Shown: piece after piece, positions 1 to 40,192 of the stretch
Layout: each line of letters opens with the position of its first letter
Position numbering within the stretch: position 1 is the stretch's first letter
Origin: Halichondria panicea
Lineage: Eukaryota; Porifera; Demospongiae; Suberitida; Halichondriidae
Direction: 5' to 3'
Length of the DNA: 64,000 bases
Assembly: GCF_963675165.1 (NCBI RefSeq)
Contig: NC_087386.1
Span: forward strand, 2,482,169 to 2,546,168
Notes under the pieces: model-generated
Told to the model about the DNA's origin: nothing
Databases searched by the model: none
Seen by the model: the letters and a program-made list of their open reading frames with translations, nothing else
Made by a program: the position numbers and the translations under genes

Positions 1-2186
1 ATGTGTGAGTCTTCCTCGTCTAAGGGTTCGTTGTCAGCATTGTAACCAGCATTGTAACCATCATTGCTGTCTACTGACTGATGTACAAAATGGCTATATC
101 GGTCACCGTTGTCGGTCAAATAATCTACAGACATTTCTCTTAGGGTACTGGCGTTGACGTCATGCCCGAGATGTTGAAACTGATATGAAACTGAGCTGAA
201 CATGCAGTTGCCATCACCTGGCACATCGTGTATCACTAAGCCGTGTTCACCTACAAATTGACCTAATAGCTGAGAATGCACTGATATGGAATCCCCGCTG
301 CTAGCCGTATGGGAAATGTCAGCGCTAGTGGTAGGAAGGTCTAAAGCAATACTACTATTGGCATCAAGTTTGGTGGGCTCAGGCTCATTGGTGTGACTAT
401 CATGCATAGGCTCGTCTTGCTCTAGCATGCTCATTACCAGCTCCTGGTCATCTGCTATTGCATTTGTCACCCAATCATCACAAATGTTAATGTGTGCATA
501 CAATGAATTGTTAGCTTTCAGCCATATCAGAGCATTACTCAATCTTTCTGGTGATACATAGTCGTACAGATAATGTCCTTTGTAGGACAATTTACGCTTT
601 AGTTTTAGTGGAACTAGCTGACACTCTGAAGGTAACCTTGGAAGGATATCGCACACGGTGTCTACTTTTGATGGTACATTTACAGCTGGGCCGTGTATAC
701 ACTTTTGCTTTCCAGTTGGGAGTGCTACCATCTTCATAAATGGTACACGCAATGCAATTAACCTACGTTCTAGTGCATTCAAACACTTCAACTCATGAGG
801 CTCACTGTCTAGTTCCATACCATTGATTTTAGCTTGAGCAGGCATGACACCTCTGGTAATTGAACCATCACATGTTTTACACACCCACTGGTTCCCATCG
901 ATTTTACTGAAGTGTGCATGCTTAGAAAGCTTTTCGAGTAGGTCGGGGTCAGCTTTAGTGTACTTACAAGGCTTGAAACGCACTACAGTATGCCTATACA
1001 ACATTCTGTGGCAGCTAGTACAGACAAAATCAGGACCAGTTCTCACCTTTGTGAGAAACTTATCAATTACAACATCAATTGTTTTTGTACAATGTCTGAT
1101 AGTAGACATTGTACGTCTATTTTTTGTTTTCCGCTCAACAATTTCTTGCTGAGTTTCGTTACTCCTCTTACGAGATGTAGATTGCTTATTAGCATTTTTA
1201 CGTACAGCAATCTGAGGCTCTGTCTCCATAGCTCTAGCTTGAGACGTGTGTGCAGTGTTCTTAGTTCTACGTACAGCAGTCTGAGCCTCTGTCTCCATAG
1301 CTCTAGCTTGAGACGTGTGTGCAGTGTTCTTAGTTCTACGTACAGCAGTCTGAGCCTCTGTCTCCATAGCTCTAGCTTGAGACGTGTGTGCAGTGTTCTT
1401 AGTTCTACGTACAGCAGTCTGAGCCTCTGTCTCCATAGCTCTAGCTTGAGACGTGTGTGCAGTGTTCTTAGTTCTACGTACAAGAGTCTGAGGCTCTGTC
1501 TCCTTAGCTCTAGCTTGAGACGTGTGTGCAGTGTTCTTAGTTCTACGTACAAGAATCTGAGGCTCTGTCTCCTTAGCTCTAGCTTGAGACATGTGTGCAG
1601 TGTTCTTAGTTCTACGTACAAGAGTCTAAGGCTCTGTCTCCTTAGCTCTAGCTTGAGACGTGTGTGCAGTGTTCTTAGTTCTACGTACAAGAATCTGAGG
1701 CTCTGTCTCCTTAGCTCTAGCTTGAGACATGTGTGCAGTGTTCTTAGTTCTACGTACAAGAGTCTGAGGCTCTGTCTCCTTAGCTCTAGCTTGAGACGTG
1801 TGTGCAGCGTCCTTAGTTCTACGTACATCAGTCTGAGGCTCTGTCTCCATAGCTCTAGCTTGAGACGTGTGTGCAGTGTTCTTAGTTCTACGTACATCAG
1901 TCTGAGGCTCCGTCTCATTAGCCCTAGCTCGAGACATGGATCGGGTATTATAACATTTACGCACAACAGCCTGACCCTTAGTTTCACTAGCTCTAGCTAG
2001 ATATTTACGTTCCCTATCCTTAGCTTTACGCAATACGCTCTGCTCACAAGTTTCAGCTTCCCTCACAACCAATTTTTTACTCACCTTTGATCGCTTCACT
2101 AAGAATGGGTTTCCACAGTCAGTGCAAATGGACCGTCTTACATGACCTACAGCCAAACAGTGGGAGCAAACCTTCGTCAAAGGCAT
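1..2186 (-). pseudogene. Helitron-like transposon protein, N-terminal part with OTU domain (runs off left edge, one nonsense codon)
   Basis: One minus-strand reading frame runs from ATG at 2186 to the window edge. In order it encodes: two CxxC pairs (CSHC, CTDC) in the first 30 residues; a basic stretch; about ten 23-residue repeats; a CxxC-type region (TSCHRMLYRHTVVRF, about 960-1020) resembling the DUF6570-type segment of eukaryotic Helitron/Helentron replicases; and an OTU cysteine-protease start with DGNCMF (198-215), giving the catalytic Asp and Cys. The frame is broken once, by TAG at 1626-1628 in a repeat where all other copies have CAG. I checked parts of the frame downstream of this stop (about 960-1020, 180-240 and 3-62) and they read as coding. 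A 3' splice site precedes the ATG (cttacag at 2190) and a donor lies near 2295. Rep and helicase domains would lie beyond the window. Helitron identity is inferred from domain order. Confidence 0.65.
1200..1925 (-). repeat. 69-bp tandem repeat (23 codons) inside the Helitron-like gene
   Basis: About ten units of exactly 69 bp encode a 23-residue repeat (RRTKNTAHTSQARA then KETEPQTLV). Variants cluster: METEP units at the two ends and KETEP units in the middle. Because 69 is divisible by three, several other frames also stay open here on both strands. These are shadow frames, not genes. Confidence 0.9.
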
Positions 2187-2201
2187 AGCCTGTAAGAAAA
2201 G

Positions 2202-2280
2202 TTGCATGTAAAGACTGTTATATGATATTTGTTGTAAGTTAGTAAAGTTTTGCATGTAAAGACTGTTATATGATATTTGT
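2202..2280. repeat. Short direct duplication upstream of the Helitron-like gene
   Basis: A roughly 31-bp segment (ttgcatgtaaagactgttat and onward) occurs at 2202-2233 and again at 2250-2280, in the presumed 5' intron of the Helitron-like gene. It looks like a local tandem duplication with no separate function visible. Confidence 0.7.
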
Positions 2281-2470
2281 AAGTTAGTGCTTACCAGGAT
2301 TTGAGAGTTGAGAAATTAGTGGAGGAAATCAGTATTCTGCTGTCAGAAGTGAAAGTGAAATAATCCAAATGTGGGAGAAACTTGATGCTGCTGTCAGAAG
2401 TGAACTTGGGTGAACTTGGGTCAGACAGTGAACTTGAATCAAGATTTAGAAATCAATATTCTGTTGTCAG

Positions 2471-3290
2471 CAGGGGCGGATCCAGGAAAAATGAAAGGGG
2501 GGGCTAGTAGAGAGGGGCGAAGCCCCGTACGAGGGTGGCAGAGCCACCCAGGGGGTGGGTGTGGGAGGGGGAGCATTCCCCTCCCGCCTCGCCGGAGGCG
2601 AAATTTTTTGCTTTTTTACAATTTGCTCACACTTTTACCTTTGAACTGTCATATTAATAAGTGAATACTGAATATGAAAAAGTTAATCAAAAAACTCGTT
2701 CTAATCAACAAAAGGATGTATACTGCATCTACATTCATGCACTCTTGGTACTACATGAAAGAATCACAATGCCTACCCAGACTGCACTGAGAGTGAGAGG
2801 AGGTAAGGCTGGTTCCTTGCAACTAGCTGAAAAAGTCTGAGATCTGCTCCATGTTGCAGCTCAACAGCATGCACAATAGCCTCCTTCACAAGGCCTAGGA
2901 AGAGAGGCCTGGGATTAGCCTCGATTCCAGCGCCTTGTTCAAGCGGCCTGGAATCGAGGCTAGCCTGGGATATGATCGAGGCTACAAACATTGCACAAGG
3001 AGCTGACTCAGCAACAGCAATAGTTGACCTATGCACTTTTATATTAGATCTAGTTCTAGCTACTAGCTAGCTAGTATGTACGTCCAGCTAGCTAGCCTAC
3101 ATCCTTTATACTCTTAGTAGCTAGACTTGGCTGTTGTCTAGCATCTCTTAAGTCAGTGAGTCTACATGCAGATGCATAAGTAACAAGGTTGGTGGCAAAA
3201 TTGTTGTAACCTCAGACTAGCAATACATAGGTAGTTTTTTCAAAAGGGGGGGGCTTCAGCCCCTCAAAATCACCCCTGGATCCGCCCCTG
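2471..3290. mobile_element. Non-autonomous DNA transposon with 16-bp TIRs
   Basis: The element starts CAGGGGCGGATCCAGG and ends with the exact inverted complement. GTCAG is present immediately outside both ends (2466-2470 and 3291-3295), giving a 5-bp target duplication. The interior has no transposase frame. G-rich and C-rich runs lie just inside both ends. TIR style and 5-bp duplication fit a hAT-related MITE, but the superfamily is not certain. It contains one tiny palindromic insertion (2916-2962). Confidence 0.75.
2916..2962. mobile_element. Tiny palindromic insertion, copy 1 (9-bp target duplication)
   Basis: A 47-bp near-palindrome begins TAGCCTCGATTCCAG and ends with the inverted GGAATCGAGGCTA. 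The 9-mer gcctgggat abuts both ends (2907-2915 and 2963-2971), a perfect target duplication. Confidence 0.8.
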
Positions 3291-3492
3291 GTCAGGATCA
3301 GGATCTAGTAGTGAACTTGAGTCAGAAGTGACAATAATCCATGTGGAGTTTAGTACGCATGCGCAAATACAATGGCTGCAAATAAAACATAGAGGTCAGA
3401 GTTCAGAATGGGCTGCTGCCATGCAGTGTTTGGGAGGGCGTGGCCAGATTACGAAGTAACAGTGCAGTGCAGTGTAGCTAGCTAACATAGCT

Positions 3493-3851
3493 AGCTTTGC
3501 AGCTCTTTTCTGACTTTTGTAGCTAACAAAAACCTAGCGCTTTAGTGCAAGGCTAACTTATAAGTTGCATAGAAACTTTGTGCGGACAGGTGATGCTACG
3601 AAAGATTCTGAAGAGACTGCAACAGCCTTCAATGTGAGTCAAACTAGCCATAACTAGAGAAAGAAGCTTTAGTTTGCTAATCCACGAATCAAAATCCAAG
3701 AGAAGGTGGCTAGAAGCCTATAGAAGCTGTTAGTTTTCGTCTTATTGCAACCGTTGAGCATTTACAGCTGGAACAGACACACACACAGACACACACACAC
3801 ACAGTCAGCTATACCGTATCCCTCGTGCGGCTACGCCTCGAGGCATAATAA
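3493..3851. repeat. About 360-bp dispersed repeat with CA-rich 3' part, copy 1
   Basis: This segment is closely related to 11,497-11,870 and more distantly to 7,566-7,925. All three share a start rich in gcagctc and tagctaac motifs, a middle block (gattctgaagagactgcaac), a CA microsatellite, and a tail with two CG-rich half-sites ending cgaggcataat. No coding frame is present. SINE or MITE status is unresolved: no A/B boxes and no clear TIRs were found. The 3291-3490 stretch before it holds nothing recognisable. Confidence 0.7.
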
Positions 3852-3918
3852 TAGCATAAGAAGCGTGAATTATTATTCACTGCAAATTTGATTGGAGAAT
3901 ATGAATGATATCAAACTT

Positions 3919-4440
3919 GTGTGTATAGCAAACGTGAGTCTGCTTGGCAGTGACAGCCGTCGTACTGTGGCTTGTTCTTGACTGCTCTGAGTTGTGCAAG
4001 GATGACGTGACATCGGTACTGATGTGTGTAGGCCCAGAGGAACAACAGAGTGGCTACAATCAGGCCAGCAAGGGGTGAGTCTGCAATGAAACATTCATCA
4101 AGGCTGACATTCAAATAGAGACTTCTAAACAACAATTAACAACCCACACACAAGTCAACAATTACACAGTAGTACCAAGGGCGTATAAAAGAAGAGAGAG
4201 CATGCAACTCCTATATGAGCAGAGTTCAAACGTGGGCGGATGAATGTGCATGACAGTGCATGAAATGCTAAAAATAGAAATTTCTATTTTTAGCACTTCA
4301 TGCAAATGCACACATTCCTCCGCCCACGTTTGAACTCTGCTAGCTACGTGTACTGATAGTGGAGTTGCATGCCCTCTCTTCTTTTATACGTCCTTGGTAG
4401 TACACTTACAATTAATACTTAATCAAGGTATGTACAATTA
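3919..4440 (-). pseudogene. SRD5A3 fragment, duplicated from the 46-kb locus
   Basis: About 200 bp (3919-4120) closely match the last exon of the intact SRD5A3 gene at 45,709-46,115, but with internal deletions and in-frame stops. Only the region encoding AYTHQYRCHVILAQLR is well preserved. The homology continues into the preceding intron up to about 4440, where a roughly 40-bp segment is inverted relative to the 46-kb locus and a palindromic MITE (4175-4397) is inserted. It is a non-functional remnant of a segmental duplication that also carried EDEM3 exons. Confidence 0.8.
4175..4397. mobile_element. Palindromic MITE (hairpin foldback)
   Basis: The ends are inverted copies of CCAAGGGCGTATAAAAGAAG, and the arms continue inward through nearly the whole 223 bp to a self-complementary centre (gaaatttc). 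TAGTA lies on both sides, a probable short target duplication. The paralogous site near 46,205 lacks the element. Confidence 0.75.
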
Positions 4441-4459
4441 CTAGACTGAATACCGTACA

Positions 4460-4640
4460 GAGGTGGGTAATTTTCGTGGGGTAAAATATTTGTGGTGTTC
4501 GTGGTTGGACCTCCAACCACGAATGAAGCGACTTTGCCTACCGTTACCTGCTCCAACCACGAAAATATTACCCACAAAATGTCTCAATATTGCTGAACAA
4601 CAAATATTTTGTCCCCCGAAAAATACCCGCTACACACACA
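4460..4640. repeat. Imperfect inverted repeat
   Basis: gtgggtaattttcgtggggt is followed by inverted relatives (aaccacgaaaatattacccac). A degenerate foldback element is likely. Between here and 4900 nothing else is recognisable. Confidence 0.4.
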
Positions 4641-13785: not shown

Positions 13786-16740
13786 TTAAACCAATGTGCT
13801 TGTGAGAAGGAGATCAGCGCGGGTTTGCCTTAGATCTTTGATGAAGAGCAAGAGCCACTCTTGCGCATGGGCAGCTTTCAGCCAGACAAGGCCTTGCAGG
13901 AGATTGTAGAGGGTGTCATGTAGTGCCTTTGGGTCGTGGGGGAGGTGAACACTGATGCAGGATGGGGCATCCTGCAGGAGAGCAAGTCTGCGCATTGAGA
14001 GAGCAGGGCAACTTACTAAAAAGTGTGAAGGTGATTCTTCTTCAGTGTTGCATAGTTTGCACGATGCATCACCGGGAGAGATATTTCCTCTGTTGCGATA
14101 TCTAAACCTGGACGCATCCAGCTCGAGCCCGTCACAGCCCACTAGGAGCCTGATTCTGAAATTTGAGGGGCCATGCATAGAACGATCCAGCTGACAGCAT
14201 GACCATAGCATCGAAGGGCGACCTAGAAGGGCGGGGAGGGATGAGATAGGGAGATTTGTGCATGTGTCTGTCATCTTGACGTATTGTGTGACTAGTGCAG
14301 ATTTCTTTGCAGCAGTCTTAAAAGACCCTTTGTTTTTCCCGTTTGAGATCATGAGAGTGAAGGGTAGCAACGAGATAAGACTAGTGTGGACCATGTTTTT
14401 AAGAGACCTGATGGAGAGTCGGCGAGAAGTCTTTCTACCATAATCTTTTTCGGGAGATCTTCTGAAGACATGCATGCGATAGAGTTAATAAAACAGAGCT
14501 GTCTGCAGTCCACCAATGCCGAGATCTCCAACGAGCCAATAAGGCTGGTGAGGGCGAGTGACGGACATCTTGTAGGCAGGCCTTGAATTGTGCGAAGTAG
14601 TTTCCTGTGAGTTCTCTCCAACATGTTGAGATCGCTCTTTGTTAGGGACCAGAGTTCTGATCCATAGAGCATAATTGGAAGGCAGAGTGAGGAATAAAGC
14701 TTGTGAGAGGTGATTGGGTGGAGGCAGCCGAACCTCGCGCCCACAGAATTCAGGGCAAAGAAGGCACTCCTACCCGCAGAGCAGCGTCCCGAGATTCTGA
14801 GGGAGCCAGAAGAAGACACTAAGCGAAGGACACCAAGGTGTTTGTAACTATCTACCTCCTGGATAATTTCCGAACAAACAGAGAAGGAACGGGACTGGCG
14901 TCCAGAGGTACGTGATCTTGTTGATTCACCAAATACCATGACTGCCGACTTGGAGGAGTTAATTTCATAGCGCCATGTACTCGTATAATGAGAGACGATA
15001 TTAAGAAGCTTCTGTAACCCTTCAGGTGAGTCCGCAATGAGAGCAAGATCGTCTGCATACATTGGGGAGGGACAGTGGACCGAGCCAACCATTGCACCTA
15101 GGCCGCAGTCATGTAGTTGGGCAAGCAGATCATCAACAAAAACTGAGTAGAGAAGCGGAGACAGAATAGCACCCTGACGAACTCCTTGGGAGATAGGGAA
15201 GATTCTTGAGCGAGACCCTTTGAGAAGAAAGCAGGACGACAAACGAGAGTACCAGTGGACCAGAATGTGCCAAATTCTAGGGTGTATACCCTTTTCTTGA
15301 AGTTTCACAAAAAGGCCTTTATGCCATACCGTGTCAAAGGCCTTCTTCACATCAAGAAATGCGACGAAGGCTTTCTTGCCACACTCCCTGAGAGATTGAA
15401 GCGTTTCTTGAAATATGAAGGACGTGTGAATTGAGCTGTAACCAGGTCTGAAACCTCCCTGAAGAGGGCTGAGAGATACTCCTTGGTGCAGTATCTTCTC
15501 TAAAAGAAGTTTCTCAAAAAGTTTCCCAACATTAGATAGGAGAGAGATTCCTCTATAATTTGAGGGGTTCTTGAGGTCCTTGTCAGCACCTTTTGGAATA
15601 GCGGTGACTAGACCAAGGGTAAGCAGATCAGGGATGTAGCAGGAAGCAAGCATAGCATTAAAGATTCTGCACAACTGAAGCTGAACTGCCGGACCAGAGA
15701 AGCACAAGTGTTCTGTTTCAATGCCATCAGGACCAGGTGCTTTCTCACGTTTGAGAGTATCTATAGCGTTGGCAATGTCAGATTGGGTGAGTAAGATATC
15801 TCCACCCTGGGTGGAATCAAGGAGGTCACGAAACCTATTGTTTACACTTTGCAGGTTGTCGGAGTCAAATAGTGGGCTATGACAGGGGGTACCAAGTGTT
15901 TCAAAGTAATTGGCCCAGCCTTCTAAGAGGGTGTCACCAGAATACGAAACATCATTATATACAATGGTGCCAGGGGAAGTTGAGGTGGAGGGAGCGTAGA
16001 ATCTTTTGATTTCTCTGAAAAGCTTCTTAGAATCTTTATTGGCCAGGTCTAAGTTTAGTAAATATTGCTCTTTGAGCGAGTGACGATGCTGGCGGAGCAA
16101 TTTCCTGAAGTGGCATTTCTTTGACTTATAGATTTCTTTGAGGGGATTTGCCGGGGCCATTGGTTTACCAGCAGATTTCCAGTGACGAAATGCTGCTTTC
16201 GACTCAGAGTGGGCAGATTTGAGGTACATAGACCAACCTGGAATAATGTGTTTTTTGTATTTCTTCAGGGGGAGGCCCTTTAATGCCGTGTTATTCATTA
16301 AGCGAATCAGGTTAGAGATCGAAGAGTCAATGTGAGAGGAGCAGCCTGGAGCAAGAGGGAATGACCAACTATTGACTGCTGTCTCAAGGGGTGAAGTGTA
16401 TCTCTCCTCTATTTCAGAACTAGAGAGCTTCGACCAATTCACACGAGGAGTTGAGGAGGAAGTGGTCATGAGAGAGGGAGCTGCAGCAAGGGTGATTTGG
16501 ATGGTAGCCGAGATTGGAAGGTGGTCAGAGGTATTCAAGGGGCACTCATCCAAAACTTTAGCGGAGGTGAAAGCATCTAAGAAGCAGGAGTGGCATAGGA
16601 TATGGTCAATGGTTGACTCGCTGTTATGAGCCTCGCTGATATATGTGTGGGAGTGAGTAGAGGAGCCGAGGTACAAGTGGACAGAGGTGAAATTAGTTTC
16701 TAGCTCTCCTATCCACTAGAGATCACTCAGGGCCTGGGAG
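13786..16740 (-). pseudogene. Non-LTR retrotransposon (LINE): endonuclease end, reverse transcriptase, C-terminal zinc knuckle
   Basis: The frame covering 14,349-16,676 begins in the last part of an APE-type endonuclease (STIDHIL, SDHLPI). It continues into a complete reverse transcriptase with KEKAPGPDG, ISLLSNVGKLFEK, FLDVKKAFDTVWH, GVRQGAILSPLLYSVFVDDL and the catalytic YADD. A second frame (13,786-14,475) carries the C-terminus with a CxxC-H-C knuckle (CKLCNTEEESPSHFLVSCP). One frameshift separates the two. Upstream of 16,676 the endonuclease frame has a stop (TAG where a sense codon is expected) and then ends, so the 5' end is truncated. Layout fits the CR1/Jockey group, but the exact clade is unresolved. 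It lies inside the 12,952-19,335 element. Confidence 0.9.
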
Positions 16741-21452: not shown

Positions 21453-23235
21453 TTAGGTATGCCCATCAAGCACAGGTGATAGAGTTGGTGACCTGTGAAT
21501 GAGCATGGAAGCATTCCCTCGCCAAAGGGCTATGCTGACTCTCCCAAAGAGGTGTTTAATGGTGACTGAGTCTCGGTCCGCGCCTGAGCGGAGACAAATT
21601 GACCGGCCGATATCACGGATGGTTGAGATGAAGTCCTCTGCTAAGCCTCCCAGGGTTTCGGCCACAAGGGGAATGCATGTCATACCCACAGACCTGCAGC
21701 TGGGGAGATTGGAAGCCAGCTTACGCTGGACCCCCACTTGGAGAGCGTGGCCCTGGGTCCTTGCAGCCTCAGACAGTGTGAGAGACTGGAGAGGAGAAAT
21801 GACATGGACGTCAAGAGCCGCTGGACGACCATTGATCCAGTTGGGGAGGAGGGCGTCTGCAGGGCGAGAAGCCGAGTCAGGAACAAGCCCTGTAGTTTCT
21901 CTTGAGGGGCCCAGAGCAGCAGACTGAGCCGCTTTAAAAACAACGTCACGGACGGCGTTGTGACGGCTGATACGGTCACTGTTGCCTCCACATCCCACCT
22001 GGTGGTCACCAAGGGAGTCAGCAACACCATGACACTCAGGGCAGGTGAACTGGTCATTGTGCAGCGGGACCCCTAGCCAGTAACACAGGCAAGAGCGAAA
22101 CTCCCTATCTTGGAGGTGAAGCCCGAGTGAGGGAGAAGGGATTACGTTCAGCCAGTCGTGAGCGTGAGGGAGACCAGTGGAGAGGGCCAGTGCTCGTGAC
22201 CTAGTGGTGGGGGCCGAGGCTAACAGGCTCTTCAGAACGGATTCATCAATAGCAGCAGAGAGGGCTCCCTGTCTGAGGGGAATGTCGATGTCGTTCAGAG
22301 TCTGCCAGTCAGGACGAGCAGAGGAGGAGGCAATGGCTGACACTGTTTCATCTAAGAAGATCGAGGGGGGAGGAGGGCGACCTAGGAGTCCTTCAACCAA
22401 GGGTGCCGAGCGAAGAGAGGAGTCCAGATATGCAGCAGGGGCATGAAGTGGGGCACTACGCAGCCCAAGCCCTCCTTTACTACAAGGGAGGGATGCCTTC
22501 TGCCACGACCAGTCCGAAAGAGGTCCTCCCAGGATACTCTCAAGAGCCCTCCGGATGGAGCAGTCAAAATCATGAGCAGTAGTGCCAACGCGGCCTGGGG
22601 GGCAGGCCCGGAGTACTGAGACAACTTTGGGAAGTGCAAGACATGAGCGTAGCAGAGTGGTTTGTGCTTGAGAGTCTTCAAGGGTGTGGAGAAGGTTCAG
22701 AGAGAGTTTGATCTTGTCTATGCGGGTTTGAAATGAAGCCTCGCAGAAATCAGGAGGACCGACTGGGCAACCAAGGAGTGAGAAGCCTTCACGGACTATG
22801 GGGATAGCCGAAGGAAGGGGGTTGACAGATTGATCAGCCTCAGCAGGAATATAGAGGAGAGACTTGGCTTTATTTAAGTGGAGGCCAATTCTCGGACCTT
22901 CTCTTTCAATGATCTCGAGAGCAGACAAGAGGTCGTTGGGCGAACCGATTAGGGTGCCATCGTCCAAATACCACGCATTAAGGGCCAGGCCTGGGACTTC
23001 AGATTGAATGCAATCAATAATGGGTTGGAGTGTGAGGGCAAAACCGAGGGGGCCTAAAGGATCCCCTTGTTGAACTCCGCTGCAGCTGAGTAGGGAGTGG
23101 CTTCCCAGAAGAAGGTTGGGCTGGCTGGAGTAGCAGGCTTCTATCCAGGGGGAGAGAGAGGGGATGTGCTTGCGGAACTCCTGAAACATGCTTCCCCGAT
23201 CGATGCTATTGAATGCATTAGCGCATGGACCATTA
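21453..23235 (-). pseudogene. 5'-truncated non-LTR retrotransposon with YLDD reverse transcriptase and restriction-like-endonuclease-type C-terminus
   Basis: The frame starts inside the reverse transcriptase palm (NAFNSIDRGSMFQEF), followed by SGVQQGDPLGPLGFAL and the catalytic YLDDGTLIG. The C-terminal half has a Cys-rich segment (CPECHGVADSLGDHQVGC), RHNAVRD, and then RPADALLPNWINGRPAALDV. This suggests the PD-(D/E)xK-like endonuclease of R2/NeSL/Utopia-type LINEs. The remaining roughly 590 codons are uninterrupted. Homology begins abruptly near 23,235, a 5' truncation typical of target-primed reverse transcription. The 3' UTR runs to about 21,330. The adjoining 20,966-21,330 stretch shows nothing else. 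Confidence 0.85.
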
Positions 23236-23623
23236 TGCGCATGCGTAGTATAAATAATGGGATAGAAATCCAATAATGAGATAGAAATCCAAGAATAAAA
23301 TCTGATGCGGGCGGTGGACCAGAAACCAGAGTATCACTTGGAGTGGCCTAAAATGTAGCTGAACAGAAATTAATATCTTGTTGTTTTCTTGTCTTCTTTG
23401 TCTTTGAATTGTGACCTTTTGAAGCATGATACTAACTTATTAATTGTGCATGAGAACAGTATGATACAGGCTGAATACAGGCCGTTTGTACGGGCAGTTT
23501 ACAGGCTGTATGTGAACGGCCTGTTTAATAGTGTCTACCCAACGGTCCCGTATCAGGATGTTGTAAACGTCCTGTAACGGACATGTAACGGACCTGACAC
23601 GCCCCGTGGATTTTTGGCTGTGT

Positions 23624-29884: not shown

Positions 29885-31333
29885 ATGGATTTTGTTTCAT
29901 TGGAAGAAGTCAAGGCTATGCTGATAGCTGGAAAAACCTACAGATGTATATCAGAGGAATTGAAGGCTTTGTATCCGCAAAAGAGAGGATTCTCAGAACG
30001 TAGCGTGAGACGCTTTGTGGCTAAAAGAAATCTAAAGAAAATTTGTTGCCATGAAAAATTATATATTGTCAATCAAAGTATTCGAGAGGTAAATTATGAC
30101 TTTTTAGTACACCTATTTTATGTACCACGTACATCAGCACCCTCGGGAATACATAGAACTGTAAAAATAATTATTTTTGGTGCACTATAATTATAATTAT
30201 GTATAGCTTTTGTATGGATTTTCTATTCTGGGGAGGAGAAATTATGAATTGCCTCATTTATTGTCCTCCCTTTAAATTGATTAACATTATCTTATATCAG
30301 TTGGATACTTCAGTAACATATATTTGTTTTGTCTTGATAGGTTGGCAGCTTGTACGGTAGAAAAATGATGAAAGGGTACCTTGCTTCAAAAGGAGCTTCC
30401 ATTTCTGAACGTGATTTGAAAAAGCACTTACCTCTTCTATCTCCACAGTGGCATAGCGCCAGGCATCAATCCTCAAGTGAAAGGTCAAACCCTCTTATTT
30501 ATACATCGCACTATTTCGGTCACAAACTTCACGTAGACCAGAATGAAAAATTGGTGCAGTATGGAGTAACGTATGTGCTCGCTCGCGATGGGTATTCCGG
30601 GAAAATAGTTGGCCAAGCTATCATGGCAGTGAAAAACAATGCTATTATATATGAACATGTTTATCGGACTTGTACTCTTGAATATGGACTATGGGACGAA
30701 ATAAGGGTTGACCACGGTAAAGAATTCTATCTACTACTCTACATGCATGAACAGCTTCGAAAAGAAGGCAGAGGCAATCCCGATGTAAGTCCATACCTTC
30801 AAACAAGTTCCACAGCAAACCACATTATAGAGCGTATTTGGGTTGAAGTCAATCAAAGGGTGACCTATCCAATTAAAAGGGTGATTATCATCATGGACGA
30901 CTGCCGACTAATCAACATGGAGAACAGCGTTGATAAGTACTGTGTTTCTGTTGTTTTGAGGAGGATATGTATGGTTGGCCTACAAAGAATGATAAACGCT
31001 TGGAATAGCCACTCAGTGCCACGGAAAGGCATCCCCAATGTGTTGCAAAGCCAAAACAATGGCACAACACCGATGGACCCGGCTGATGTTCCTTCAGTTG
31101 ACAATGCTGTCGCTGCGTACAGAGAGCAAGGAGGTAGTCTAACAGATCCACACGAGTTTGGTTCAGACCCTTTAATAGATGATGCGACACTATTGCAGCA
31201 GCGGGAAGATGATTGGTTAGGCAGGTGTGCGAGCACAGAAGAAGTGTACACCCAACTTATGTGCAATGACTCGCAACCTCTCCAAAATTCGATTTTACAC
31301 TATATTGAAATTACAAAAAATCTTTCTAATTAA
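29885..31333 (+). CDS. Integrase-like (DDE) transposase
   Basis: Two exons, 29,885-30,088 and 30,341-31,333, join in phase 0 (gtaaat donor, gatag acceptor) and give 398 residues. The N-terminus is a helix-turn-helix-like DNA-binding region (EEVKAMLIAGKTYRCISEEL, GFSERSVRRFV). The catalytic core shows the integrase pattern: first Asp in HKLHVDQNEKL, second Asp in RVDHGKEFY, and Glu in ERIWVEVNQRV. This fits the rve/integrase fold. The C-terminal 100 residues are not assigned. No stop or frameshift is seen, so the gene may encode an active enzyme. The start codon follows a divergent spacer of about 115 bp shared with the RING gene side. Confidence 0.8.
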
Positions 31334-31392
31334 ATATTTTTTGTGATAATTATTGCTTGTGACTGATGAGATGACTTGATGATGGGTACCAC

Positions 31393-31441
31393 TAGCCTCG
31401 ATTCCAGGCCGCTTGAACAAGGCGGCCTGGAATCGAGGCTA
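31393..31441. mobile_element. Tiny palindromic insertion (49 bp, perfect 8-bp target duplication)
   Basis: TAGCCTCGATTCCAGGCCG, a loop of about 11 bp, then the perfect complement. ggtaccac abuts both ends (31,385-31,392 and 31,442-31,449). Confidence 0.85.
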
Positions 31442-31467
31442 GGTACCACCTGTGGCTGAGTAGAACT

Positions 31468-31502
31468 TAGCCTCGAGACAAATCGGCCTGGATTCGAGGC
31501 TA
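31468..31502. mobile_element. Tiny palindromic insertion (35 bp)
   Basis: tagcctcgagac then cggcctggattcgaggcta. The flanking 9-mers agtagaact and agtaggact match 8/9. Confidence 0.7.
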
Positions 31503-32103
31503 AGTAGGACTGGGCCAGTTAGATAACTGTATGAGCTTGAATTTCCAAGCTGAAAGCTTATTACTGAAACTTTTAGACTAAAAGCTAATTTCATGCCATG
31601 GTGGTTCAGGTACTACCACCGCATTGTATAAAGCCAAAAGCTGAAAGCTGGCTGATAGCCCAAAGCAAATTATACATGTACCAATTTCTGTGATCACAAA
31701 TTGCTAAATTCAACTTGGCCACTTTGGTCCACTGATCCTTCAACCGTCAGTGACATATTACGGTGCCAGAGAGTAGAATCCAGAGAGTTTCTAAGAGTTT
31801 TGAGTCTCTAATGCTCTTTTTCGTTCTAATTAGATCGGGACGTCTAAAAATATTTACATTTCCTGTTGTTCCTTAATATAGAATGAGTAAGTCCGAAGTG
31901 TCCCTTAGAATAGAGTGTCCCGGTAATTCGGGGGAATACGGTACTTGCTTTATGTGTGTTCTGTGCTCTATTTGGAACAATAATTATGTGTCCTTTGAAC
32001 CCTTTCTTTATTGAACAATGTGTGGGTGTTGCTACAAGCCCCGCCCCCTCATGCCTCTAGCCACCCACAAAGAAATATAAGGGGCCTTCCAGACCTTCTT
32101 GAA

Positions 32104-35100
32104 ATGGCTGAATCTACAACCCTGAATGCTGCTAGTTCCCCACAGTTAATGGAGGATAGACTTACTGATAGGGATAGGGTATGATATTAACATAATACTC
32201 AATGATCAGTGCATTCTCCTAGTGCCTAGATGTACTTGTTGACCACCCATAAACACACTTGGCATCATTCATTCATCACAGTATAGTGCCTACACTCTAC
32301 CCTGTCAGTGTGAGGTGTTTTATCTCATGTTGTTGTTCTCTCCACATGTACCACTCTCTCTGGATGGACAACAGGAACACATTGAGGTATGTTGTGTGCA
32401 ATCACATTCTACCAAGCTGACATGCTTGTGCTCTGAGCACTTGTTGTTAGGAGGTAGACAGTGTAAAGAAGAGCACATACGGATAACTGAATGTGATACT
32501 ATTCCTTAATTGAGACAAGTAGATCTACTCGTAGTAGTACCTGAAAGTATGCATGGTTAATCAAGTGTTTCAGTCTGCATGTTTGGCTGTCCACAATTGT
32601 TTCCCCTCCCCTGTGTCATGCAATCACCAGTGTACTGTATCACTGCACTAATGTTCTCTTCCTTCCATTTCATGCATCTCCACCTCACCTTTGACTGACC
32701 CTCTGAAACAACAGCATGTAAGTTGGTGTGTGTTGTCAGAGTATTTAGTGTCTGTTGCATATTCTGTGATGTTTCTACTTCCCCATTATTACTCTTGTGT
32801 GTGTGCAGTGCCATAGTGTTATATAGGGAAATATTTAGTATGATCACATTCAACCTCGTAATCATTCATTTACTATCTTCCCACTGTTTACCCTGTGGAC
32901 TCTCCCTCTCTGGATCAACAGTATGTAAGTTGTGTTTGCACATGCACGCTCATTTTAGTGGTTACTAGGAACTCGTAAATTATCTTTGTCTCTTTCCATA
33001 TTGCCAACTTGGTATTAGCCGAGGCCCACACAACTTATTAGGTTGTAGTTTTAATATTCGTAGAATATACACCTAAGTTCATTAGTTGGTACGTACATTA
33101 TCGTGTTTGTCTCTTCCCATGCACACACTCATTCCTATGTTGGACCACACACTGATTTGGACAACTGTAGGAGGTGAGCTTCTTACGAGTACTCAATGTC
33201 CACACACTAAAATGGTTCAGCTGCAATGTGTATGGATGTACTGGTTACCTAGCATCATTAGCGTGTGTCCCTTATCCTCTAGAGCTGACCCTCTCCCTCG
33301 TATAGGGTAGACCACGGCTTTAAACTTGTTCAATTCGTAATCCCATTTTACGGGCACAAGTTCGAAATACCACCATTGTGTACATTGTGTACATGTAAAT
33401 TTGTGTTTATGTAAATTCCCCAACCAATTAAGTGCCTACTGAACCTAAAACTTGTTGCCTATTAATATTTTCTCAATATTTCCCCAACTTTTTTATTTCT
33501 TAGCTTTTCTATACCAGGTCTAGCCACTTGTTGCTATGTGTAGTCAGTCCCATACACACCAGCGTTCAACTGATCTGATGTCTTGTATGTGTATTAAGAC
33601 TAAATCTCTCCCTCACATGTACCATTTGATGTGTCTCAGCGTAACATAGAGGTATGTTGTGATTGTGTGTGTGTCTCATGGAGTGCATGTGTTGTATTGT
33701 ACGACAAACAAAATCATACGTATCAAAGTTGTACATGTAAGATGCTTGTTTTATCGTTTACCGTCCCTTCCACTGACCCACCCACTGACCCTTCCATTAT
33801 CTGCCATTGCTATAGTACTGAGTACCTGTGTGTGTACTAGCCAGTGTGTGTACTACCAGTGTTCATATCACTCTCTCCTCACATGTACTCTCTGTGGACT
33901 GTTACTCAACAACAGGACGTGAGTTTATTGCATGTACATATAATGGCATACTAGGCTGACTTGTATACATGTACTACTGCATGAAGACAGAAAGAATAAC
34001 TTGCGTGACTTTATTTAGGATTAGTACGTACTAAAAGTTTCATGCTGTACAGACGTGTACTTGCAATAATTGATGTATACATGTGTGAATGCATTCGTGT
34101 ATTTGAACATGTTCATTTCTCTACATGTCCGTGTCCTACTGCTTGTTAATGTGACTACTGCTAATGATTACTGGAACAACAGAATGTAAGTTAAAGTTAC
34201 AGTATGCAGACATGTATGAATGCACTCACTGCTCCTACCATCATCCCCCTCTCTCTGTTTCCATGTGTGTCTTACGCTTGTGTATCATTGGACTAAACAG
34301 AAGGTGAGCGGGACACTGCACTGACTTGTGACTGTACTTGTGTCAGTAATGTTTGAGTTGCATGAGTACATGTGTATTGGCATTCATAGTGTACAGATTT
34401 GTGATTATATTATTTTCTCTCTCCCTACATTTCCATGGTTACTGAATATCTGGAACGATAGAAAGTGAGTCAAACAATGTTGGCAAACATACTGTACACC
34501 TCATGTGCATTCAGTTTGTAATAGTCTCATATCCTTACCTGACTCTAGTAACTACTCTGATTGCTCCTATAGATGATTGCTCCTATAGACAACTACACTC
34601 ACTCTTGTTTACCTTGTCTTGTTCACCTTGTCCAGTTGAAGGCTAGGTATGAGAGTGAACTGATTAAACTGAAAATGGTTTCACTCGTGGTAAGAGTGGT
34701 ACACGTAGTCTAGCAGAACGACAATGTGTGTACATGTACTGTCCATTGTATGATGAATGGTTGCTTTTTGTCTACCTTTGTGTATGTTTTATAAGTCCAC
34801 TTTCACTGTTTGACTGTGTGAGGTTATACCGTATAGCGGGTAAATATAATATTATGATATGCTCGCTATATTTATTTAGGTTGATTTTATATTTTGATAA
34901 TTTGTACATTTGTATCAGCTGCGTGTTCTATTTGGTGGAATATTTCTTCAGTCGTATTATATATTCTTTACTCCCCCAGAGAAGAGCTGCCCTCCAACAG
35001 AGACTGTCTGGAGACATCACAGACCAGGACCGGAGACAACTGCAGCGAGAGCTGGAGGAGGTGGAGGGGAAGATCAAGGAGTGTGTCTCAGGGATACAAG

Positions 35101-38100
35101 CGTGTGAGGGGAATATACATAGCAATGAGAAGTTGATTGCTAAGATACGAGTAAGAGCAGAGGAGAGGCAGAGAAAGGAAGGTGAGGGGAGCAAGGAACT
35201 TTATAGTACAGTGAGTGTTGATGCACATAGTTGCAATCACTCGTACTTGTAGCAACTTACATGTAGTGTGTTATTAGTAGACTGTACGTACAGCTGTTGT
35301 GAGGTCCTCATACTTTATATAATCGTGTATTGCAAAAGCGTTTGCTCCACCCATAACATTTCTGTTCGCCTATCACATTTGTTGTGTTGCTAGGCAACTG
35401 ACCCTGATTGTGCACACTACAGTGTACTAGAGCATTGTTCCTGTTACTACTCTACACACTGTGGTGGTATGGTTATGGTTTATTGAACTTTATTAATACC
35501 AACTTTCAATGATTTGGGTTCGTGACGTTGTACTGTGTTACTTAATTATGACATCATCATGTTAATTCAAGCATAGCACATTCCTGTAGTGATCAGCCAC
35601 ATCATTATTACCCAGTACATGTATTCCCTGTCATTGGTGGGTCACCCACTTAGCAAGCTTTAACCGGACCACTGGCATTTCATTGGCTTCTTACGTATAC
35701 GCACAGCTGCTGTGTCCAGTTAGAGCAGTTACCGTGTATAGCGCGATATTTTCGAGGGGCTTAATTTTCGCTGATTTCATGGGTTAGCAATCCACGAAAA
35801 TTGTTCTAATTATCTGCTATAACATGCAAAGATTAAAGGCGTGGCTTCCGGTACGCGGTCAACCCACAAACATTGTGTGCAACGAAATGCTTTAGAGATC
35901 ATTCCACGAAATATAAATGCCTCGAAAATTTCTCGCTATATGGTATTATGTACATGTACATACAGTACCTATGTAATTATGTTCTTATCAACTATTTGCT
36001 CCACCCACCACCTTTTTAAGCTTGCGTTGCTAGGCAACTGACTGTATTGTACAGTTTAGGCAGACTAGCAATCATTTTATGATATGTACAAGCCCGAGGA
36101 CGAGTTGCATAAAACATGATGCTATTGTTATGTGTTTTATACCTCACCAAATTATGGACGTGATCGGACTGTATGACTTTTATACATACTTATTGCCTTT
36201 ATATTGTTTACATGTTTTCCAGACTCCAATGTAATTTTCATTCCATTGTTCATTCCCCCACCCACTCACAACCACCATCCTTTTTATTTACATTGATAAT
36301 TATGTGTTTTGCTTCATATCCATTGGGTTGTGGGGAGTACCCTCTACTGTGCTTACTACATGTGTACTTAATAGTGACATCCATGAATGCAAGCATAGCA
36401 CATTACTGCATGTAATGATCGGTTTAATCACATGCATCATAATTATGGTGACATCATAATAATAGTCCATCTTGTCACCCAGCTCTAAAGTATTGCATAG
36501 TTAACATTCCTAACACCACATACACACGTCTTGTTTAGAATCAGCGAAGCAGTTGTTTGATGAGGCGATGAAGCATGGACACGTCTTGGTCAACATTGTC
36601 AATATGCTCGTGTTTGGACCGGCGGGAACAGGGAAGACCAACCTCAAGCACCTGCTAACTGACAAGCCCCCTCCACTACAGCGTGACAGCACTCCTTGTA
36701 TGGAAAAGCCAGTACGCATTCGACCTGTGTCCAACACGAAATTCAAGTCAACTGGAAGAGGCTGGGAAGAGATGTCTCAGCCAAAGCTGCGCAAGCTACT
36801 TGCTGAAATCATCTCTAAGTTACCAAAAGAAAGCGCCGATCCATCCACTGCACCAAGGGTTGCCAAGAGTTTGAAGAAGATGACCACAACCGAGCTAATT
36901 CCTGGTTCCGATGAGCAAATTTCTGATTCCATTTCGAACCCATTGAGGAACGATTCCGATACACTTTCTGGATCTGCAAGAATGTTGAAGAAAGCCGTTG
37001 ATGAAGTGATAGCGAGTGTAGTGAGTGGTGTGGCAGAAGAGCTGAAGCCAGCCAAACAGGGAACTGACCAACTGTCGAGCAGTGACCAGCAAGAAGGAGA
37101 ACTGTTTGATTCCAACTGGGTGTATGTTACCGACTGTGGCGGCCAGCCGCAATTCCACGACATCAGCCCTCTCTTCATCAAGCACATTTCGGTGGCATTG
37201 GTAGTCCTGCGTTTGATTGACGAACTCTCCAGTTTCCCTTCTGACGAGTACTACAAGGATGGGCAGCTTGTTGGTAGTCCTCATGCATCTCACATGACCC
37301 TCGGGGAGACACTTCAGAGTCTCATTCGATCGATTGAGTCCCATACCTCACAAGACAAGAAGCCAAGTATGATCTTTGTGGGCACATTCTTGGATCAACT
37401 GGAGGAGAGCTCGGATATACTTATCAAGAGGAATCAAGAGATTCTCGACATGCTGCCACCCGATATCAAGAAGCTATTAGTGTACAACGATCCTGGATTG
37501 AACAATCTTATTTTTGGTCTCAGCGCGATCAGCCGAGATGACGATTCACTGGCCACTGCCAATAGGATTAGAATTGCTGTTGAGGACTCTATTCCGCTAC
37601 AAGTCAAAATGCCCATCTGGTGGTCCTTCTTGGATTCACTTCTCCAGAGTTTATCTGCCAATCTCAAGCGAGGTGTACTAAGCATTGAAGAATGTCTCCA
37701 ATTAGCCACTCGATTTGGTTATTTGCTCAAAGATCTTGAAGCTGCTCTGGTCTTCTTTGACAACGTGTGTATAGTGCACTACTATCCCTCCATTCTCCCC
37801 AACACAGTGTTTGTGGATGCCCAGATTCCACTAGACAAGATCACCGAGCTCTCACAGCACGCCATCTTCCTGAGGAATGCTGAAGTCAAGTCACGCTCTA
37901 CTCTAAGCACAGGAATGACCAAGGCCGAATGGAAGAGATTTCGAGACGAGGGCATAATCACTTTAGGGTTCCTTCGATTCTTTAAAAAGCATTACGTTGA
38001 AGGCATCTTTTCTCCAGAAGATATGCTGTTGATCATGAAAGATCTTCTTGTGATTGCTCCCACTCCTCTAGTGGAGTCCACTACCCACCAAGCCGAGTTC

Positions 38101-40192
38101 TTCATGCCATCTCTACTCAAATCCATCAAACCTGCTGAGCTAGATAAAGTCCGTTCCTCATCTGTCCCCCTCGCTATTCACTTCCCTAGTGGGTGTATTC
38201 GCTCTGGTGTCTTCTGTTGTACGGTTGTGGATGTAATGCGGAGGCATGGTTGGAAAGCTGTACTCCCCTCAGGTGATCCAATTCTTTTCGCTAAGAATTG
38301 TATTCAATTTCGATATCCGAATCGTCCTTGTGTCATCTCATTGGTTGATTCCTTCTTCTGTATGGAAGTGTATGTCAAAGCCCCCCCTCCATTACGCAAA
38401 GTGTTGTGTCCCATAGTTTGTTCTCAACTAATGGAATCCATCAAAGCTGCTTGTGTTGTTTTGAATTACAACAATGATACACCCAAACCAGCGATCTTTT
38501 GCCCTTGCAAGAAGAGCATAGGAAGTGGAAACAAGTTGCACCTTGCCGATGTGAGTGTGGATGGCTATTGGATGTGTTCCCTTCATGCAGATGAGTGGGA
38601 AGAGCTCAGTGACGAACATAGAATCTGGTTGGACAATAGCAAAGGTTCAGGTGAGTATAATAATTATAGTGTTCAGTAATATTGACATTAATACCGTAAT
38701 TACGTAACAGTATATGTAAACATTTGCAGTTCTATTAGTTTTGGAACTTAACTAGCTAGTACATAGTTACTTGATTAGCAGATTATTTGTTAAAGTTAAG
38801 TAAAATGTGTATCAAATAATTTAAAGAAGGAGTGATCAACAGCCTTGTATGGTAATTGACAAACGTACTACATGAGCGTAACTGCTGTGTCTGCTTTTCC
38901 TTAGGTAATTCTGTAATGGAAGATGTGTTCTTGAAGACTGAAGTACATGTGCATGTTAATGATCAGCGAAATACTTCTAGTAAGCTTTGTTTTGCGTTTT
39001 TTTTGTTTTATAAATTTTCCCTCCTCAGACCCTGCAATGGAACATGTGGTCAATAAAACGAGTGATCAACATACCAGTAAGAAAATGTCAATTGGTCAAC
39101 AAGTTATTTCGAGTTTGAAAGTTTAATTTTTTTCCTGGGCCTAATAATAACGATTTAATCTATCTTTTTTCAGATGAATTGTCCTCTGTTATAGTAATGG
39201 AAGATGTGTGTAAGAAGACTGGAGTGAGGGACCAACAACTAGATCAAGAAATCCCTGAGAGTGACATCATTCTAATTGCAGAGAAATTTCCACACCTGCT
39301 GAGCGTGCACAAGGTAGGCAATACTCTAATTCATATACTGTACGTACTTACATAATTATCATTTTTACATTTGGTAAGGGGATTGAGCATATTGTTTACC
39401 GGAACCCCTAATGGGCTAATTTGTTGACGCATGCGCAGACAACTAGTACCAGGCCTAGTTGTTCGCCTAACCCCTCAATTGTATATATTCCCTTTTGTCT
39501 AGAAGGTATTTCCGAGGGGGCAACCCTCACCAAATTAAACACTGGTTGATTGTTGTTTTTGTACAGGTTTTGACAATTGACGATCTACAACATGTTTACG
39601 AGAAACTACACACTGCACATGCAAGTGCCAGCCCTCACTGGTTCAATCTGGGATTGGCTCTAGGTCTCAGTCATTTCATTCTCACCAATATCGATACCGG
39701 AAAGTATCGTGGCGATAATGTGTCGTGCTTGCGTGAAATGTTGGTTAAGCTCCTGAGTACGCAAAATGTAACATGGAGTCTCCTGTCAGACGCTCTCAAA
39801 AAACCCACAGTGGATCTCATTAATTTGGCTGACAGCATCACAGGTTTGTGCAGTTTTTATTTATTAGCCTTTGTGTTATTGATATCTATCATGAAAATAT
39901 AATTTTAGTGATGCCTCTTTCTTTGCATGCAGTCAATCAATCCACAAATCCTAACCTGCTCAATCGACTCAACCTCACCCCAGCCGACCGTGATGGTGTA
40001 ACTGATATCACAAGTTGTTATGGCAATCAAGCTGGAGTGGCTCATGCATTGAGAGCGTGGCGAAAAATGAATCCTTCCAGAGCTACCTTCAGGGCCTTGG
40101 TGGAAGTTGCCATAGGACTGAGAAGAGGAGACACTGCTACAGACATTTGTAGATTCATTGTAGAGAATACGAGTGGAACTGACCGAAACTGA
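32104..40192 (+). CDS. Roco-type (Roc-COR) GTPase with microexon-encoded N-terminal coiled coil and two C-terminal death-like domains
   Basis: Proposed exons: 32,104-32,178; nine microexons (32,375-34,464); 34,636-34,689; 34,980-35,181; 36,539-38,650; 38,905-38,979; 39,029-39,076; 39,174-39,313; 39,567-39,843; 39,933-40,192. All junction phases agree, giving 1095 residues. Domains in order: coiled coil (about 20-125); P-loop GTPase with GPAGTGKT, the G3-like DCGGQPQF and the G4-like VGTFLD; a COR-like region (PIWWSFLDSLL to VFVDAQIPLDK); a Cys-containing region; a linker of three related exons; a first death-like domain (LTIDDLQHVYEKL to DSIT) and a second (DRDGVTDITSCYG to GDTATDICRFIVE). 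Roc-COR-death proteins are known signalling GTPases (compare DAPK1 and MFHAS1); an immune or cell-death role here is inference. Introns in the 5' part are much longer than the exons they separate. Confidence 0.85.
32375..34464 (+). other. Array of nine microexons (3 or 12 nt) encoding coiled-coil heptads
   Basis: Microexons: GAACACATTGAG (32,375), CAT (32,715), TAT (32,922), GAG (33,171), CGTAACATAGAG (33,640), GAC (33,916), AAT (34,183), AAG (34,301) and AAA (34,462). Each lies between an AG acceptor with an upstream pyrimidine stretch and a GTATG, GTAAG or GTGAG donor. All are multiples of three and keep phase 0. The first four encode EHIEHYE and the next four RNIEDNK, one heptad each. The two sets of four match position by position in flanks: both 12-nt exons are followed by gtatgttgtg, the third members read caacag-NAT-gtaagtt, and the fourth NAG-gtgagc. 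This supports duplication of a four-microexon cassette. Joined with the next exon, hydrophobic residues fall with 3-4 spacing. Confidence 0.75.
35182..36538 (+). other. Large intron of the Roco gene
   Basis: The intron between the coiled-coil exon and the GTPase exon. It holds a foldback MITE (35,731-35,944) and otherwise no recognised element. Confidence 0.6.
35731..35944. mobile_element. Foldback MITE with ACCGTGTATAGCGCG-type ends
   Basis: Starts accgtgtatagcgcgatatt then ttcgagg; ends cctcgaaaatttctcgctat then atggt, its imperfect complement. Internal inverted pairs (cacgaaaat / attccacgaa) are visible. No coding capacity. Confidence 0.65.

Follow-up and report, generated by a model that had tools for sequence, protein, structure and literature searches.

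Predicted one-codon exons with hypervariable codons in a family of Roco-like GTPase genes of the sponge Halichondria panicea

The genome of Halichondria panicea very probably encodes about 40 paralogous Roco-like GTPases with Death-type C-termini, whose N-terminal helix would be assembled from an array of one-codon and four-codon exons under diversifying selection. The array was recognized in one gene within a 64,000-nucleotide stretch of DNA (C10:2482169-2546168, hereafter the window; feature coordinates refer to this stretch). A preliminary description of the window had proposed nine successive microexons that preserve phase, and had suggested that skipping one of them could tune oligomerization of the protein. 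All nine are found where they were placed, and the predicted spliced frame is open from an ATG at 32104 to 40192, with every microexon in phase 0 and a product of 1095 residues. As judged from the DNA, the observation is confirmed and is larger than first described, and the most likely reading changes from splicing-tuned oligomerization to a hypervariable repertoire of predicted one-codon exons.

The gene is LOC135342165: in a protein search with the earlier gene model, 94% of the query aligned to its isoform X2 (P0001) with 100% identity. The nine predicted microexons, of 12, 3, 3, 3, 12, 3, 3, 3 and 3 nt, lie between a 75-nt exon 1 and the exons annotated by RefSeq, and all features described here are on the + strand. 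Exon 1 (32104..32178; MAESTTLNAASSPQLMEDRLTDRDR, phase 0) is predicted from its open reading frame and donor. The first set comprises A1 (32375..32386; 12 nt, EHIE, of the form x x I E), A2 (32715..32717; CAT, H), A3 (32922..32924; TAT, Y) and A4 (33171..33173; GAG, E), of which A2 and A3 are hypervariable between genes and A4 is nearly constant. The second set comprises B1 (33640..33651; 12 nt, RNIE, of the form x x I E/K), the hypervariable B2 (33916..33918; GAC, D) and B3 (34183..34185; AAT, N), and the constant B4 (34301..34303; AAG, K). A last microexon, C (34462..34464), is AAA for K, and is K, E or R, once N, in the paralogs. Next come exon 10 (34636..34689; LKARYESELIKLKMVSLV), exon 11 (34980..35181), which continues the coil with more x x I x x x E units, and the P-loop GTPase exon (36539..38650), which has paralogous exons elsewhere in the genome. 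Five C-terminal exons (38905-38979, 39029-39076, 39174-39313, 39567-39843 and 39933-40192) are called Death-type through their relatives only. With every exon included, the predicted order would be GAACACATTGAGCATTATGAG, then CGTAACATAGAGGACAATAAGAAA, then TTGAAGGCT, the microexon string amounting to 45 nt. By eye, MAESTTLNAASSPQL is unlike a signal peptide.

The earlier label of a death-domain GTPase draws its support from relatives of the gene. P0001 itself falls below every Pfam cut-off, and profile searches of Pfam and PDB with P0001 or its alignment gave weak GTPase matches only, but some of 36 aligned relatives match the Roc (6), COR-A (4) and Death (4) profiles at E<=0.01.

Several features of the splice sites set the microexon region apart. 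Between exons 1 and 10 (32179-34635) there are seven GTRAGY donors, each lying exactly 3 nt past an AG; at A4 and B4 a second AG directly abuts the donor. The whole + strand of the window holds 13 AG-N3-GTRAGY sites, including these seven, while 200 order-3 Markov simulations gave a mean of 3.8 per 64 kb and at most 3 within 2.1 kb. The AG-exclusion zones upstream of the microexons measure 39-128 nt, compared to 22-50 nt for the eight ordinary exons of the gene, so that the two ranges touch; the preceding AG lies 54-128 nt back at the seven 3-nt exons, and at the two 12-nt exons it lies 39 and 58 nt back. When a filter required at least 39 nt of AG exclusion and a donor of the GTRAGY or GTATGT type, all candidates in the microexon region measured either 3 nt (seven) or 12 nt (two); the rest of the window gave 29 candidates over its two strands, with lengths spread over 1-30 nt.

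The acceptors had been described as AG-free zones containing pyrimidines. They are AG-free and pyrimidines are present, but these lie mostly at about -50 to -20 rather than by the AG. Most microexon AGs are adjoined instead by a conserved, non-pyrimidine motif resembling CTGGA-CAACAG, unlike the ordinary exons of the gene, where pyrimidines adjoin the AG. Most microexon acceptors resemble one another, and the exon-by-exon match between the flanks of the two sets, which had been taken to imply duplication of a four-exon cassette, is unspecific within the window: the matched order, A2-A3-A4 against B2-B3-B4, gives 54 identities and another order gives 60. Likewise, no direct repeat of 30 nt or more was found in 30000-37000. 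The repeated cassette survives as a pattern of exon lengths and of variable and constant positions across paralogs, not as a duplication supported by flanking sequence in the window.

The wider family was sought in the H. panicea genome (131 Mb, 39 contigs). A search with P0001 gave at least 54 matches, including at least 39 near-full GTPase exons when the window's own is counted; these counts are lower bounds, as the best candidates were scored. The other near-full exons lie on C10 and C13 at 74-91% identity, and the further matches comprise two partial loci, three distant copies at 44-45% identity, and C-terminal exons. Of nine loci whose upstream DNA was compared, eight carry the window's microexon sites over the length available, the intron ends being near-identical and the codons different; the ninth (L023) differs. 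A genome scan for the B2 site let acceptor and donor stand 0-30 nt apart. It identified 37 copies, every one with exactly 3 nt between the two, which comprise 14 codons for 11 amino acids and no stops, while the reversed control gave 0 matches. The copies were selected by exact B2 flanks, so that conservation of the B2 flanks follows by construction; the other microexon sites were located with looser patterns that tolerate mismatches. No related locus was confirmed in collections of viral contigs and genome contigs, and tblastn did not bear out 11 pattern matches in the genome contigs.

Thirty of the 37 B2 copies, each with 3 kb of DNA, together with L021 make up a set of 31 arrays that includes the window (as L051), and every microexon from A2 to C found in these arrays keeps its length of 3 or 12 nt. 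B1 is 12 nt in 31/31 arrays, with 31 different sequences, and B2 is 3 nt in 31/31. The other one-codon exons are likewise always 3 nt: A2 at 26 paralog sites (13 codons, two cross-hits having been dropped), A3 in the 28/31 arrays where it was found (10 codons), A4 also in 28/31 (GAG in 27 and AAG in one), and B3 (11 codons), B4 (AAG throughout) and C (four codons) in 30/31 each. A2-A4 were not found in three of the 31 arrays (L032, L047 and L052); the 3 kb of L047 ends too early, and L025, from the same locus, has them. B3, B4 and C were not found in one of the 31 (L034). Upstream, among 21 sources scanned, the MAESTTL start is present in 17, one of which, L064, is frameshifted beyond MAESTTLNA. 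A1 was recognized in 15 of these 21, each time as 12 nt of the form xxI(E/K), although L029 also permits a 36-nt reading; it was not recognized in L062-L064, where exon 1 is nonetheless present. The three A3 copies with TGG all have a gttagt donor, compared to gtaagt in the other 25; compensation for U1 pairing was considered and rejected here, two of the genes (L031 and L036) being close relatives.

A different array occurs in the distant copy L023 (C6, 44% identity), where a common flank pattern picks out six candidate exons of 9, 12, 9, 12, 12 and 6 nt encoding ERV, NYQP, RGH, NELL, SNIA and LS. The upstream 30 nt are almost identical for five of these, while the sixth matches only in the last half; two sites have a second donor 7 nt downstream, and two adjacent exon pairs sum to seven residues. 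As far as sequence can tell, the style of the array recurs in L023, not the exact cassette.

Across genes the unit order is [x x I E/K][x][x][E] [x x I E/K][x][x][K] [K/E/R] [x K A x x E S E L ...]. The proposed seven-residue units, divided as 12+3+3+3 nt, thus recur across paralogs as x x I E, x, x and a constant residue. The coiled-coil-like 3-4 spacing is also borne out in the window gene: when the register is extrapolated from exon 10, the 15 microexon residues include four a/d positions, and 3/3 hydrophobics fall on them (chance.009). A similar unit recurs in exon 11, which is an ordinary exon (193-202 nt in the 22/31 arrays where it is complete) and includes x I Q x x E x x I H x x E N x I A. 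Twelve positions of exon 11 match unit positions 1, 2, 5 and 6; eight of them are hypervariable (38, 41, 42, 44, 45, 48, 49 and 52), two are constant (37 and 51), and two are intermediate (55 and 56), while positions 59-60, off the unit pattern, also vary. That an ordinary exon carries a similar unit speaks for the microexons being included, in this order and phase.

The strongest contrast is between the codons and their introns. In the 31 arrays, the diversity at the three codon bases is.72/.74/.08 for A2,.62/.74/.20 for A3,.67/.70/.12 and.75/.77/.46 for the two variable codons of B1,.69/.74/.51 for B2 and.65/.51/.37 for B3. For A1 (15 copies) it is.71/.73/.70 and.73/.79/.48; C is intermediate (.46/.43 at positions 1-2), and A4 (.07/0/0) and B4 (0) are near-constant. 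By comparison, introns lie at about 0.05-0.06 (.063 over 1488 columns of intron body), the 20-nt acceptors at 0-.027 and the splice signals overall at 0-.046. A diversity of 0.6 or more is reached by 2/1471 columns of the whole introns from A3 to C, and by 9/10 variable position-1/2 columns. In the GTPase exons of 20 loci (L001-L020, a set that leaves out the 44-45% copies), fourfold-site diversity is.095 and 0/658 codons are equally variable. Diversity that changes amino acids, at ~0.7, is thus far above the neutral level of 0.05-0.095.

In every variable codon of A2, A3, B1, B2 and B3, diversity is lowest at the third base; in A1 this is less clear. At variable sites the third base is mostly T or C, and it becomes G mainly for Trp (TGG) and Met (ATG), and in some copies for Arg, Val, Lys, Glu and Gln. 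None of 327 codons is a stop, a result weakened by the 185 that end in T or C and cannot be stops. Most likely, the pattern reflects codons translated in phase 0 under diversifying selection, as judged by site diversity rather than by a codon model. Closely related genes add a complication. In 60 gene pairs with less than 2% intron divergence, 43-72% of the variable position-1/2 bases differ, compared to 0-5% at A4 and B4, and the third bases differ in 7% at B1 codon 1 and in up to 57% at B1 codon 2. In the 15 pairs whose introns diverge by ~1.3%, differences affect 61% of the bases at variable positions 1/2 and 43% of those at third positions. Because third bases in near-identical pairs also exceed the introns, recent point mutation plus selection is hardly sufficient on its own.

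The annotated proteins bear on the array in several ways. P0001 starts at the internal ATG of exon 10 (MVSLV), the CDS start of LOC135342165 X2 in RefSeq, without the first 53 predicted residues and hence without all of those encoded by microexons; it and most of 51 RefSeq/ENA N-termini compared begin at exon 10 or later. A MAEST start was found neither among these 51 nor in any other protein in a search with residues 1-75, both of which covered cluster representatives only. The predicted upstream exons would imply that the annotated N-termini in the family are wrong. In the DNA of L029/L034, B3, B4 and C are missing and B2 (ATT) lies 169 nt from exon 10, which is 42 nt long in L029; by its sequence, then, a change of register through exon loss does occur in L029, by DNA deletion. 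P0004 (LOC135342889 X3) starts with 33 nt of intron and continues through the ATT codon, exon 10 and exon 11, and agrees with the joined L029 DNA at 93/93 residues. Since this model runs into B2 from the 33 nt of intron before it, it supports the B2 donor and not the acceptor; RefSeq uses this donor, whether from RNA reads or by ab initio prediction, and the intronic start would be expected if the software cannot place a 3-nt exon. The first 34 residues of P0026 (LOC135347047 X3) are a reading of the paralogous B2-B3 intron (in the window, from 34042) with one difference, and P0026 then joins the coil, lacking B3 to exon 10; its start reflects either a modeling error or a genuine alternative first exon.

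Could the microexons be something other than constitutive coding exons shaped by selection? AG-N3-GT is common by itself, and AG-N3-GTRAGY occurs at 18 sites on the two strands of the window, but the clustering above simulation, the AG exclusion and the fixed lengths in 31 paralogous arrays leave a chance chain of random sites with next to no probability, and these scans refute it. The sites might also act as ratchet points or regulatory decoys within a single 2.4-kb intron, the 3 nt being absent from the mRNA or untranslated. The AG-N3-GTRAGY layout resembles recursive splice sites, the second AG against the donor at A4 and B4 could be read in this way, and the annotated paralog isoform P0026 begins within the B2-B3 intron. 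It is difficult to see, however, why non-coding spacers would vary more than 10-fold above the adjacent intron, mostly at codon positions 1-2, while two of them stay fixed, or nearly so, as Glu and Lys, in a unit pattern like that of exon 11. Recursive sites have an exon of zero length, or one that is skipped, within a long intron; here 3 nt are kept in 37/37 B2 copies and the region spans ~2.4 kb, which is short next to the long introns in which the cited account places ratchet points (PMC8605326). We regard this explanation as highly improbable, if not quite as remote as chance.

Two further alternatives accept the exons as coding, and each is unlikely, to about the same degree. According to the original suggestion, alternative inclusion of one-codon exons would shift the coiled-coil register and so tune oligomerization of a single gene product. 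Phase-neutral exons do make skipping possible, the shortened array of L029 offers a genomic parallel, and the family has many RefSeq isoforms, whose N-terminal differences were not traced to microexons. The suggestion is nevertheless unsupported: the register fits full inclusion, array lengths are fixed, and what varies is the identity of codons between genes. The other alternative is a germline diversity generator, a mutator aimed at these codons with selection secondary, for which the large third-base differences at ~1.3% intron divergence and the prevalence of T or C in the third base both speak. Such a mutator would have to spare the neighboring one-codon exons A4 and B4, which hardly vary, and the third base shifts to G mainly where the amino acid requires it (TGG, ATG); moreover, ordinary exon 11 varies at similar unit positions. 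Constitutive coding exons under diversifying selection are thus the preferred reading.

How might such exons be spliced? Splicing would proceed by intron definition, one step at a time: the short introns (115-466 nt in this gene) would each be removed as a unit, and every step would add one codon and recreate the donor for the next. The conserved motif between the pyrimidine tract and the AG could substitute for exonic enhancers, which 3 nt cannot hold. All microexons would normally be included, because the repeat then passes into exon 10 without a break in register. Dropping any one of the one-codon exons would disrupt the register, whereas dropping all seven residues of a cassette would leave it intact.

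The variable residues on the helix may decide the partner or ligand of each paralog, and diversifying selection would keep the copies distinct, much as happens in repertoires for recognition or allorecognition. By analogy, we infer a recognition role for this Roco/Death-like GTPase; that its N-terminal helix recognizes self, kin or microbes is a guess. As to the mode of diversification, gene conversion or recombination between paralogs could homogenize introns while selection holds the codons apart, and with one residue per exon, recombination could reassort residues singly. Two loci are instructive. The GTPase exon of L058 (C13:5760741) is 45% identical to that of the window, and that of L055 (C13:5646974) is 81% identical, yet the array introns of the two differ by 1.5% while their variable codons all differ; similarly, the array introns of L021, another 45% copy, are 2.4% from those of L054. 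These mismatches favor exchange between genes and indicate that the array and the GTPase exon have different histories. As for the codon differences between near-identical pairs, either introns were homogenized around older codons, or codons were exchanged or mutated in a targeted way. We favor conversion or recombination with selection. Residue linkage between five sites in 27 genes did not exceed permutation (variance p 0.73) and so shows no sign of descent or of co-variation, which fits exchange, and also simple saturation, without proving reassortment. Perhaps, then, the family is a germline diversity system of an early-branching animal, in which many specificity residues sit in one-codon exons and recombination can swap them singly among ~40 paralogs as introns are homogenized, a form of single-residue exon shuffling; this we offer tentatively, with somewhat less than even confidence.

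If the preferred reading is true, each gene of this family has seven 3-nt exons in series, their codons surpassing all those of the GTPase exon in variability, and the need for internal exonic enhancers is challenged. By analogy, the proteins would be candidate molecules for sponge discrimination of self from non-self, or of microbes. No title among the literature matches listed concerns arrays of one-codon exons or this GTPase family, though such work may exist. Judged by sequence, the exons are microexons in the sense of 30 nt or less between functional splice signals, having 3 or 12 nt between acceptors and donors conserved in paralogs. Exons of 3 nt are cited for Ncam, Drosophila TnT and hth, and human RPS24 has consecutive microexons of 3, 18 and 22 bp (PMC8042270, PMC7392893, PMC12686416). 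In the cited portions of these accounts there is one 3-nt exon per gene, alternatively spliced, whereas the sponge gene has seven, four of them hypervariable between genes (A2, A3, B2 and B3) and C moderately variable. The 1-nt exon of plant APC11 indicates that constitutive splicing of exons below 3 nt is possible (PMC4674806, PMC8831610), and intron definition with stepwise splicing has been proposed for it in Arabidopsis (PMC4674806); in contrast to the sponge array, it is a single conserved exon, and the cited passages describe no diversification. The acceptor motif has a parallel in REPA, regulatory elements located, as at the sponge microexons, between the pyrimidine tract and the 3'AG, but those characterized in the cited text are human G tracts acting as silencers (PMC4320613).

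Likenesses in gene architecture and in mode of evolution come from two other systems. Schistosome MEGs, as outlined in the cited sections, carry many small and mostly symmetrical exons between larger ones, with microexons given as <36 bp, and form fast-evolving families of host-interface proteins whose diversity is tied to alternative splicing (PMC4671649, PMC4350168). The sponge genes share the central coding array of small, symmetrical exons flanked by larger ones and the rapid evolution of the family. However, symmetrical microexons make up most of the coding region in MEGs, while the sponge array encodes 15/1095 residues, and its exons, mostly of a single codon, are fixed in length, belong to a GTPase, and differ between paralogs. 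In Podospora HNWD and fungal NLR genes, repeats evolve in concert while a few fixed positions of each unit come under positive selection, a combination linked to non-self recognition (PMC4986451). Those repeats are of the WD, ANK and TPR types, with no one-codon-per-exon layout in the portion cited, whereas the sponge repeat would be a heptad helix.

The N-terminal microexon array and the GTPase exon of this Roco-like family have different histories, because near-identical arrays sit beside GTPase exons of only 45% identity to that of the window gene (36539..38650). The L058/L022 array upstream of C13:5760741 and the L021 array upstream of C13:5829299 closely match those of other paralogs, while the GTPase exons at these two positions are the divergent ones. 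Comparison of the genome scan for the B2 microexon with the GTPase-exon search also uncovered B2 arrays at C10:396814, C13:5589710 and C13:6029296 that have no GTPase exon at the expected place among the matches listed; these arrays are either remnants, or the GTPase copies there went unscored.

A second candidate array, recognized by a common flank pattern, lies at locus L023 (C6:5256500-5266400, minus strand, reverse-complement positions 895-4541), upstream of a GTPase copy with 44% identity. Its candidate exons are 9, 12, 9, 12, 12 and 6 nt long. Comparison within L023 gave the flank shared by its own sites as gccactgactgattag / N / gtaagttgta, and the codons of these candidate microexons are unrelated.

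Exon 10 is 54 nt long in the window gene (34636-34689) but 42 nt in paralog L029. At +42 the window exon reads GTTTCA, and the donor used, GTAAGA, is 12 nt further downstream (RefSeq MVSLV), adding four residues relative to L029. At 39174-39197, the acceptor of the RefSeq protein P0001 sits 24 nt downstream of that in our exon model, so that P0001 reads SDQHT-IMED and the model SDQHT-NELSSVIVMED.

Within the B2-B3 intron, 34042-34143 translates, with one difference, as the first 34 residues of the annotated paralog protein P0026 (LOC135347047 X3), and is a possible alternative first exon.

By eye, ORFs resembling transposon-type reverse transcriptases occupy 14349-16715 and 21453-23333 (both minus strand), and one resembling a transposon-type integrase (30341-31333, plus strand) ends ~770 bp upstream of exon 1. 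Inspection by eye of the family's C-terminal part (38905-40192 and paralog proteins P0021, P0033, P0106 and P0107) revealed small repeated modules (NSVMEDVCLKTEV..., GKPSSATGGTCTK...) along with repeated Death-like blocks. These C-terminal repeats suggest additional modular exon duplication.
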